Shown in pieces: positions 9,592 through 15,000 of a stretch of 33,233 nucleotides of DNA (positions are counted from its first letter, which is position 1; each line of letters starts with the position of its first letter). Origin of the DNA: a virus; the IMG/VR virus record IMGVR_UViG_3300045135_002970, positions 1 through 33,233 of that record, one strand, 5' to 3'. The translations under genes were made by a program, and so were the position numbers. Below the pieces are notes generated by a model. The model did no database searches and had not been told where the DNA came from. It worked only from the letters and a program-made list of their open reading frames with translations.

Positions 9592-10267
9592 AATAAAATA
9601 CTCTTACATTTTCATGTTCTTTTAATATAGAAGCTGGTACATCGGGGGTCGTTTTTCCCCATATAGCTTTTACGAGAGCATCACGTTTGTGTTCACCGTG
9701 TACCATCATAATTATTTCTTTTGAACTCATAATAGTTTTTAATCCCATTGTAATTGCTTGAGTGGGAACATCATCAATAGAATCAAAAAATCTACTATTA
9801 TCTTTTATGGTTTGTTGGGTTAAGTTTACAATTCTTGTTGTTGAATTAAATGGTGTGGATGGTTCATTAAAAGCAATATGACCATTAGAACCTAGTCCTA
9901 GTATTGTTAAATCCAACCCACCAGCTTTTTGAATTTCATCGTCATAATTTAAATTTGGAAATCTAATATTTTCTTCTTTGATATCAGTGTACATATGTAA
10001 ACGACGCCACATAAAATTTGTATAACTTTCTGGATGATCTGGGTCTATGTCAATATATTCATCTAAATTAAATGTTGTGACCGCTGACCAAGTTAGATTT
10101 CTCTCAACCAAAGATTTATACATTCCAATGGGAGTTCCACCCGTGGGTAGTCCAAGTTTTATGTGTGGTAAGTTATGGGTGCCCGGTATAGGAGCAATTA
10201 GGTCTTCAATAATATCAGCCACCATGACCGACATTGTGGAATAATCTGTAATATAATTTATAATCAT
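9584..10267 (-). CDS. nagB: Glucosamine-6-phosphate deaminase
   Basis: About 227 aa. NagB turns glucosamine-6-phosphate into fructose-6-phosphate and ammonia. Visible motifs are GLPTGGTP (phosphate loop), FNLDEY (catalytic Asp), GLGSNGHIAFNEP (catalytic His and lid) and ITMGLKTIMSS. It is shorter than E. coli NagB (266), lacking the C-terminal part linked to allosteric GlcNAc-6-P control, as in some Gram-positive enzymes. I chose the ATG at 10267 because it forms an ATGA overlap with the DUF2452 gene; an in-frame ATG at 10279 would add four residues. It is followed by the overlapping PIG-L deacetylase gene. NagB is a rare phage metabolic gene. Confidence 0.92.
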   Translation of the reverse strand: MIINYITDYSTMSVMVADIIEDLIAPIPGTHNLPHIKLGLPTGGTPIGMYKSLVERNLTWSAVTTFNLDEYIDIDPDHPESYTNFMWRRLHMYTDIKEENIRFPNLNYDDEIQKAGGLDLTILGLGSNGHIAFNEPSTPFNSTTRIVNLTQQTIKDNSRFFDSIDDVPTQAITMGLKTIMSSKEIIMMVHGEHKRDALVKAIWGKTTPDVPASILKEHENVRVFYCD

Positions 10268-13295: not shown

Positions 13296-13298
13296 AAG

Positions 13299-13372
13299 AG
13301 CTACCTTTCGGATTCGAACCGAAGACCTGCTGCTTACAAGGCAGCTGCTCTGGCCAACTGAGCTAAGGTAGC
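13299..13372 (-). tRNA. tRNA-Thr (anticodon TGT)
   Basis: Acceptor GCTACCT/AGGTAGC, anticodon loop CTTGTAA, T-loop TTCGAAT, complete cloverleaf three bases from the proline tRNA. Confidence 0.92.
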
Positions 13373-13631
13373 ACATCGACCGTTGAAGCCGTCGCTTCTT
13401 CTGCTATCGGGGACGGTCACTCCCTCACCTACCACAATTAAAACCGTAGACCAAGTGTAGGGTCAGTACTACGGTCCTACGGAAACAAGGCCCGTAAGAA
13501 CCCCCACATAAGGACTGGCGGCCACACCAGCAAGTTCCGATCAAGGAACACCTTATGTTTCATCAAATCATACATTCTAGATTGCGACTCTAGATGTTCA
13601 GTGGGAACACCACCTAGTATGTTTGATTGGT
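13373..13631 (-). ncRNA. Structured RNA A (gene-free gap in the tRNA array)
   Basis: This part of the gap has no reading frame but, read on the minus strand, many perfect helices. They are an 11-bp stem with one bulge (13617-13627 with 13562-13573) enclosing GTGG/CCAC and TCTAGA/TCTAGA hairpins; an 8-bp stem ACATAAGG/CCTTATGT (13551-13558 with 13506-13513) enclosing GTTCC/GGAAC and CTGG/CCAG hairpins; CCGTAG-type 7-bp (13469-13475 with 13443-13449) interlaced with GTAGG/CCTAC (13476-13480 with 13457-13461), a possible pseudoknot; and GACCGT/ACGGTC around GAAGC-GACG-GCTTC (13378-13418). Two three-way junctions are clear. It starts right after a hammerhead candidate. No known RNA class recognised. 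Confidence 0.65.
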
Positions 13632-13678
13632 ATCTGTGACTTTTCAGTTTCTAGCATTTCAGCCGTCATCAGACAGAT
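13632..13678 (-). ncRNA. Candidate type I hammerhead ribozyme
   Basis: On the minus strand: stem I ATCTGT/ACAGAT (6 bp, 13673-13678 with 13632-13637), core CTGATGA (13666-13672), a weak stem II (about three pairs with a C-A mismatch at its base), GAAA (13648-13651), stem III ACT/AGT with a GAAA loop, and the cleavage triplet GTC (13638-13640). Self-cleavage would fall between 13638 and 13637, separating the upstream glutamine tRNA from RNA A and the threonine tRNA. The core and stems I and III fit; stem II is the weak point. Confidence 0.55.
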
Positions 13679-13682
13679 TTAG

Positions 13683-13755
13683 TTGCCCCACTAGGACTCG
13701 AACCTAGACTTTCATGATCCAAAGTCACGCGTGTTGCCAGTTACACCATGGGGCA
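13683..13755 (-). tRNA. tRNA-Gln (anticodon TTG)
   Basis: Acceptor TGCCCCA/TGGGGCA, anticodon loop CTTTGGA on stem CGTGA/TCATG, T-loop TTCGAGT, discriminator A. Confidence 0.9.
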
Positions 13756-14089: not shown

Positions 14090-14329
14090 GTAATAGAATG
14101 TGAGTGAAGGATTTCCTTGTACCTCCAATAGAGCTACCCCGAAGGGTTACCGTAGGCTTTGGCCAGCTCTAAACCGTGAATGTGTCCGCCGACTGTTAAG
14201 TCAGGATTGCGAATCCAAATAATGATTGCCGGTCATTATTGTGTTCTTAACGTTCACGTACCTTGTCCCCCGATAGAAGGGACTATTCAGTCAACTCACG
14301 GATGCCCGTCGGCACCGCTTTTCTATTAC
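14090..14329 (-). ncRNA. Structured RNA B closed by a 9-bp perfect stem
   Basis: A gene-free 240-base gap between the glutamate and lysine tRNAs. GTAATAGAA (minus strand, 14321-14329) pairs perfectly with TTCTATTAC (14090-14098) and closes the whole unit. Inside, on the minus strand, are GTCCC/GGGAC (14279-14283 with 14265-14269), AATAATGA/TCATTATT (14233-14240 with 14218-14225), GGATT/AATCC (14212-14216 with 14204-14208), a CTGACT/AGTCGG hairpin, and AGAGCT/AGCTCT (14165-14170 with 14130-14135) enclosing ACCC-TTCG-GGGT. This is a many-branched RNA of a class I do not recognise. Confidence 0.65.
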
Positions 14330-14524: not shown

Positions 14525-14854
14525 TGGAGACGGCGGGATTTGCACCCGCGTCCGAACTTAACTACCCAAATCACTATCAACGCTGTAGGACAGTTAGGAG
14601 TACCAAGGTGTCCAACCTCACGGCTTTGTAACGTCTATGCCGATCACGAAATACATTCTTTGGTGTATATATCCGTACTTAGCTCTATTCCTAAGAGTCA
14701 CCCGAAGTCATTTACTTCCCGTGTTTATCCTATCGGTATCAGATAGTGGGAAGGGCTTAAGCGGCCATTAGTAAAGGTTCGTCAGTTACTTTTAAAGTAT
14801 CAAACTAGCGTATCAATTTAGTATCACTAAACCCGTCGAATCTAAATCGTCCCC
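14525..14854 (-). ncRNA. ssrA: One-piece tmRNA
   Basis: On the minus strand the 5' end reads GGGGACGATTTAGATTCGAC, the canonical tmRNA start, and the 3' end carries a T-arm (GCGGGTGCAAATCCCGC) and CGTCTCCA. The acceptor GGGGACG pairs with CGTCTCC over seven pairs (one G-U). The message part is probably GTA ACT GAC GAA CCT TTA CTA ATG GCC GCT TAA (14789-14757), giving a tag ending TDEPLLMAA, with the expected Ala-Ala end for ClpXP. tmRNA with SmpB frees stalled ribosomes and tags the protein for proteolysis. It lies within the tRNA array. The resume codon is my inference; CCA is not encoded. Confidence 0.92.
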
Positions 14855-14865
14855 GTATATGAGGA

Positions 14866-15000
14866 GTGGTGAAAGATTCTCCGTCCCGTCCGTTTCCAGC
14901 CATGGCGGACTTTTCCCACGCGGATTCGAACCGCACAGTCCATTGGAACATATCGCTGGGGAGAACTTTCGGCCAGTGACGCGGCACTGACTTTTACCAC
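14866..15000 (-). ncRNA. Structured RNA D with T-arm-like hairpin
   Basis: A 135-base unit just upstream (in the transcript) of the tmRNA. GTGGTAAAAG pairs with CTTTCACCAC (14991-15000 with 14866-14875) apart from one mismatch and closes it. Inside are CAGTG/CACTG, TTCTCC/GGAGAA, GTCCG/CGGAC and a GCGG-TTCGAAT-CCGC hairpin identical to a tRNA T-arm (around 14919-14933). No D-arm or anticodon arm can be drawn, so it is not an ordinary tRNA. Confidence 0.55.

Follow-up and report, generated by a model that had tools for sequence, protein, structure and literature searches.

Hammerhead ribozymes of phages

The closest described systems are the Rfam hammerheads, namely the type I hammerhead (RF00163) and Hammerhead_HH9 (RF02275), and the phage and prophage hammerheads of Perreault et al. 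2011 (PMC3088659). The latter are small elements of intergenic phage DNA with a weak stem II and, in some cases, a mismatch at 10.1-11.1, where U.U is the best tolerated mismatch; genes, integrases and intergenic regions are given there as contexts, and a term search of the paper brought up no location in a tRNA array. The PaP3 hammerhead was reported to be active by Perreault et al. (PMC3088659). The purpose of prokaryotic and phage hammerheads is an open question (PMC6155905).

The window analysed here is the whole 33,233-nt stretch of IMG/VR virus record IMGVR_UViG_3300045135_002970, a 33-kb record with phage genes. On its minus strand, at 13632-13678, it contains an element that is very probably a genuine type I hammerhead, for which cleavage is predicted. 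Like RF00163 and RF02275, this element has the core bases, three stems, an open stem I and an NUH cleavage site; unlike them, it has C.A instead of G-C at 10.1-11.1, is not detected by Rfam, and lies inside a phage tRNA array, where it stands at the front of a further structured RNA. With the hammerheads of Perreault et al. it shares small size, location in intergenic phage DNA, a weak stem II and, with some of them, a mismatch at 10.1-11.1.

A hammerhead core between tRNA genes

Read directly from 13678 to 13632, the minus strand is AUCUGU CUGAUGA CGGC-UGAAAU-GCUA GAA ACU-GAAA-AGU C^ACAGAU, with three stems surrounding the core and the caret at the predicted cut. Stem I (AUCUGU/ACAGAU, 13678-13673/13637-13632) consists of 6 perfect pairs and is open, so the element is of type I, with loops closing stems II and III. 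The core comprises CUGAUGA (13672-13666) and GAA (13651-13649), and stem III (ACU/AGU, 13648-13646/13641-13639) has 3 bp and a GAAA loop. CUGANGA ... GAA with A15.1-U16.1 is present and is the same in the window and in an ortholog, L001, described below. The initial annotation had listed the core, GAAA, the cleavage site, a 6-bp stem I and a 3-bp stem III with GAAA loop, and all of these read as claimed, giving a complete type I core. Its proposed cut at 13638/13637 agrees with the hammerhead numbering, which places the predicted cleavage site between C17 (13638) and A1.1 (13637) of the minus strand; H17 is not G in either genome, being C13638 in the window and U in L001. The stem II hairpin (13652-13665, minus strand; CGGC-UGAAAU-GCUA) had been called weak, and rightly so: C.A at 10.1-11.1 is followed only by G.U, G-C and C-G, that is, 3 bp past the mismatch, closed by the loop UGAAAU. 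A C/D-box sRNA reading of the same stretch, based on UGAUGA/CUGA boxes, was rejected because the spacing is wrong.

The neighbours, all on the minus strand, are also as first described, the element being placed between the glutamine tRNA and a structured RNA. tRNA-Gln(UUG) (13682-13755) ends 44 nt upstream of the predicted cut, and the remainder of a conserved structured RNA of about 260 nt (13377-13631) lies downstream, followed by tRNA-Thr(UGU) (13298-13372), the first tRNA past it, and by tRNA-Pro. This downstream RNA was found to match no Rfam family, and no convincing relative of it was found among the other loci collected. Two further RNAs were observed in the same region. A manA RNA (RF01745) at 14095-14316 (minus strand), between tRNA-Lys and tRNA-Glu, scores 52.6 bits, just under the Rfam gathering score of 55.2; it is likewise a structured RNA of this array, its sequence is unrelated to that of the hammerhead, and a small ORF takes its position in L001 and in the relative L006. 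manA RNA is not known to self-cleave. A phage tmRNA with the tag DEPLLMAA lies at 14525-14897 (minus strand) beside purA, and L001 has one in the same place with the tag DEPYLMAA.

Conservation in close relatives

L001, an IMG/VR contig, has the element at the corresponding position, again flanked by tRNA-Gln and tRNA-Thr, and the 49-nt block there differs from that of the window at one position only, C17 to U. This change is permitted in hammerheads. The loss of core bases in homologues, which the initial annotation had singled out for checking, was looked for in L001, the sole ortholog found, and 0 core bases were lost. The RNA after the cut is 91.8% identical between window and L001, with an 18-nt insert that extends one hairpin and a few compensatory changes. 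With one ortholog and a single change, no covariation of the stems is seen within this lineage.

No further homologue of the element was found in named phages, in viral contigs (three patterns) or in one pattern scan of a genome collection for the hammerhead block. PurA as guide gene reached only close relatives, of which the L008 contig ends before the position of the element. In L006 and L007 (PurA 85% identical), the hammerhead element is absent and a small ORF stands in its stead; the element is therefore an optional cassette of the array. L006, which lacks the cassette, has a non-coding stretch at 9923-10156, between tRNA-Thr and tRNA-Pro, that appears to be structured; it has no Rfam match and a folding z-score of only -1.4. 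Three contigs (L003-L005) that matched an 18-mer of the downstream RNA were rejected as homologues, the match lying in apparent coding sequence with no tRNAs and being attributed to chance. The motif GAATAACT, which L001 shares, reads GAACATCT in the window and was set aside as probably a coincidence.

Related hammerheads in unrelated phages

Viral contigs were scanned for the core together with the stem III of the window. Most of the 56 matches were judged to be chance, as were many from a later scan with core and motif, but L115/L120 and L126 were found to be intergenic elements of unrelated phages whose stems I and II differ from those of the window and which have the downstream motif GAAUAACU in common. 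Scanning for the core plus GAAUAACU yielded L158, L151, L142, L176 and L167 in viral contigs and two copies in bacterial contigs, one from Pseudomonas nitroreducens (L181) and one from Rhodobacteraceae. Seven unrelated phage or prophage hammerheads were thus reached starting from the window site. L158 and L151 score 31.2 and 30.4 bits with the Rfam hammerhead models (E about 0.001), under the gathering scores. A final scan used CGYGGANNNNCCN9GAATAACTGG, a pattern that covers only sequence after the ribozyme and, lying outside the core, does not select for a hammerhead; it retrieved at least 120 contigs and at least 101 distinct RNAs, in at least 74 of which the pattern is immediately preceded by a hammerhead core whose stem II pairs. 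Position 16.1 is U in all 74 listed, and H17 is C in 48, A in 22, U in 4 and G in none. In this wider phage set the stems covary strongly, with 161 both-sides-changed cells against 56 in shuffles and a score of 0.541 against 0.166, in an alignment fitted to the structure of the covariance model R1, so that the counts lean towards that structure. Two side observations belong here. L064, a purA-bearing phage contig, has two hammerhead-like motifs about 1 kb apart (44-75 and 1079-1134), each immediately followed by a ribosome-binding site and a start codon. L115 has a tRNA-like gene with a long insertion (9990-10105), 52 nt before a hammerhead, which scores 35.5 bits with the Rfam tRNA model and has no ARAGORN match.

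Two covariance models were applied to the window, with E-values from a shortened calibration, as also holds for a third model, R3, used below. R1, built from seven sequences with the window and L001 left out, gives the site 40.4 bits (E 3.7e-8), the next place in the window reaching 12.9 bits; this score is inflated and partly circular, since two of the seven sequences (L115 and L126) had been fetched with the stem III of the window. R2, built from 55 members of the final scan and independent of the window, gives a modest 18.9 bits (E 0.022), the best place in the window. With either model, no second credible hammerhead was found at the other tRNA junctions of the array. The PaP3 hammerhead scores comparably, at 21.9 bits with R2, and has no Rfam match at E 0.1; the values for the window therefore fit a real, divergent phage hammerhead. 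Rfam finds no hammerhead at the site even at E<=10, and none in the window at gathering or at permissive thresholds. As the PaP3 control shows, the Rfam models are insensitive to phage hammerhead forms.

Stem II and a competing hairpin

A Watson-Crick pair at 10.1-11.1 is usual, but not strict, in hammerheads, and the window has C.A there. Such a pair is also absent from 34 of the 74 related phage hammerheads among the matches listed, namely T.T in 16, A.A in 12, G.T in 2 and A.G, A.C, C.C and C.A in one each; the single C.A among these 74, in L267, is the same as that in the window. Nearest-neighbour folding favours a different hairpin, which is more stable by 3.6 kcal/mol in the window and by 1.5 kcal/mol in L001. 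The element might accordingly be a hammerhead by descent that the C.A mismatch and the competing hairpin have made slow or inactive, its block surviving as the hairpin with which the structured RNA begins. Consistent with this are the position of the mismatch, at the second most conserved pair of hammerheads, the 1.5-3.6 kcal/mol advantage of the alternative hairpin, and the C17-U change in L001, which preserves that hairpin as a G-U pair. Nevertheless, the catalytic bases are all intact in both genomes, the one difference within the 49 nt is at H17, a tolerant position, and other phage hammerheads among the matches listed have C.A, A.A or U.U at 10.1-11.1. The PaP3 hammerhead, reported to be active in vitro (PMC3088659), also begins stem II with U.U. 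We consider such a loss of function rather improbable.

A further alternative is chance, in which case the structured RNA would start with an ordinary hairpin that merely reads as a hammerhead. In 157 Mb of order-1 Markov sequence built with the dinucleotides of the window (both strands), the hammerhead descriptor matched 3 times, and in 103 Mb of the same kind of random sequence a slightly different form of it matched once; about 3e-4 to 6e-4 chance matches are thus expected per window, and the site at 13632-13678 is the only match within this one. A scan of many windows would meet such matches at that rate in each, and conservation alone is not specific, because the whole RNA of about 300 nt is conserved. 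Stem II lies outside the descriptor, however, and it shares GCUGAAAUGCUA, 12 contiguous bases, with the stem II of L201, the closest among the 72 listed family stems. These 72 comparison hammerheads come from unrelated phages and were gathered without using the core; when 4000 random stem-loops of this shape were compared with their stems, 0 reached 12 bases with any of them. Nor is the alternative hairpin kept in the relatives: it requires a 10.1 that pairs with G and an H17 other than A, and of the 74 matches listed, 42 have G at 10.1 and 22 have A at H17. Chance resemblance is accordingly very improbable. The identification as a genuine type I hammerhead, with predicted cleavage, is supported by the ortholog with its allowed C17-U change, by the likeness of stem II to unrelated phage hammerheads, and by the enrichment of such RNAs beside tRNAs described below.

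A phage RNA family with a nested hammerhead

The RNAs retrieved by the final scan constitute a structured family with at least 101 distinct copies, at least 74 of them with a nested type I hammerhead. Its layout is CGUGGG-helix-CAUCUGG-CCCGGC, the ribozyme or a short linker, and then a CGYGGA-helix holding GAAUAACUGG; a CCCGGC/GCCGGG-like helix connects the two halves and crosses a further helix. The chain order is half 1-(hammerhead)-half 2 in 73 listed members, and hammerhead-half 2-hairpin-half 1 in 13 listed after removal of one false match. The second order is a circular permutation of the first, and the junction that holds the ribozyme is unchanged. Loci include L158:4661-4828, L176, L207, L253, L258, L297, L298, L300, L311:1500-1668, L312:1500-1668 and about 90 more, and cultivated carriers are Enterobacter phage SDFMU_EhYP (19591-19759) and Pectobacterium phages Pappous and Taid. 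Among the matches listed, 21 of 102 places lie within 150 nt of a tRNA, against 6.3 expected. Members of type B consist of a hammerhead followed by a structured RNA, and the one in Pectobacterium phage Pappous stands directly before tRNA-Met. One tRNA array, that of L263, was observed to contain a tmRNA, a manA RNA and a family copy lacking the ribozyme. No match to the family was found in Rfam 15 for the loci scanned. The family is widespread and apparently has no earlier description in the literature covered; it may be described elsewhere.

The window element resembles this family (L158, L176, L207, L311, L312 and about 96 more) in being a type I hammerhead between tRNAs, as those of the family often are, and resembles the type B members in that a structured RNA begins with it. 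It differs in that its stem I lacks the conserved CGYGG and its downstream RNA has no match to R3, a covariance model of the family RNA. Family membership of the downstream RNA was considered and rejected, the best R3 match on the array being 4.3 bits, and the family motif CGYGGA-GUNNCC-N9-GAAUAACUGG was not found after the ribozyme of the window. The downstream RNA of the window is therefore something else.

What the cut may be for

The hammerhead would act on the minus-strand transcript of the tRNA array, during or after transcription, and sever it between 13638 and 13637. The cut would part tRNA-Gln, left with a 44-nt trailer and a 2',3'-cyclic phosphate at its end, from the structured RNA of about 260 nt, which would then start with a 5'-OH and have tRNA-Thr and tRNA-Pro behind it. 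RNAs that begin with a 5'-OH are poorly attacked by decay that depends on a 5'-monophosphate. The most likely use would thus be to set where the downstream structured RNA starts and to shield that end, and a shorter polycistronic tRNA precursor would be a side effect. What the comparison establishes is the complete core with its three stems, conservation in an ortholog and the likeness to covarying phage hammerheads; the cut itself, its rate and its purpose are inferred from this anatomy.

The initial annotation had instead suggested that self-cleavage releases tRNA-bearing fragments without relying on host RNases. The enrichment of hammerhead RNAs beside phage tRNAs would suit a ribozyme that serves mainly in tRNA processing, breaking a long precursor without host endonucleases, but the geometry is against it. 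The cut falls 44 nt beyond tRNA-Gln and therefore cannot finish that tRNA; the trailer is left with a blocked 3' end, so that host processing would still be needed, and the 5' side needs RNase P. Moreover, the other tRNA junctions of the array show no hammerhead with R1 or R2, and about three-quarters of the related RNAs among the matches listed have no tRNA within 1.5 kb in the available sequence. A role chiefly in tRNA processing is therefore unlikely.

Taken together, the reading that we favour, with a probability of roughly 0.8, is that of a type I hammerhead predicted to cut at 13638/13637 and likely to set the 5'-OH end of the structured RNA. More tentatively, phages may use hammerheads in tRNA arrays to make discrete structured RNAs with a 5'-OH, the RNA of about 260 nt in the window being one product and the pseudoknotted, circularly permutable family of about 100 members (at least 101 copies) another, possibly processed to or from circular RNA. 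A hammerhead fronting a conserved RNA within a tRNA array and about 100 phage RNAs that have a hammerhead at a fixed junction lead to a testable proposal, namely that one end of a structured RNA is generated by the ribozyme. The related RNA occurs in the cultivated Enterobacter phage SDFMU_EhYP and Pectobacterium phage Pappous, where this proposal would be directly testable.
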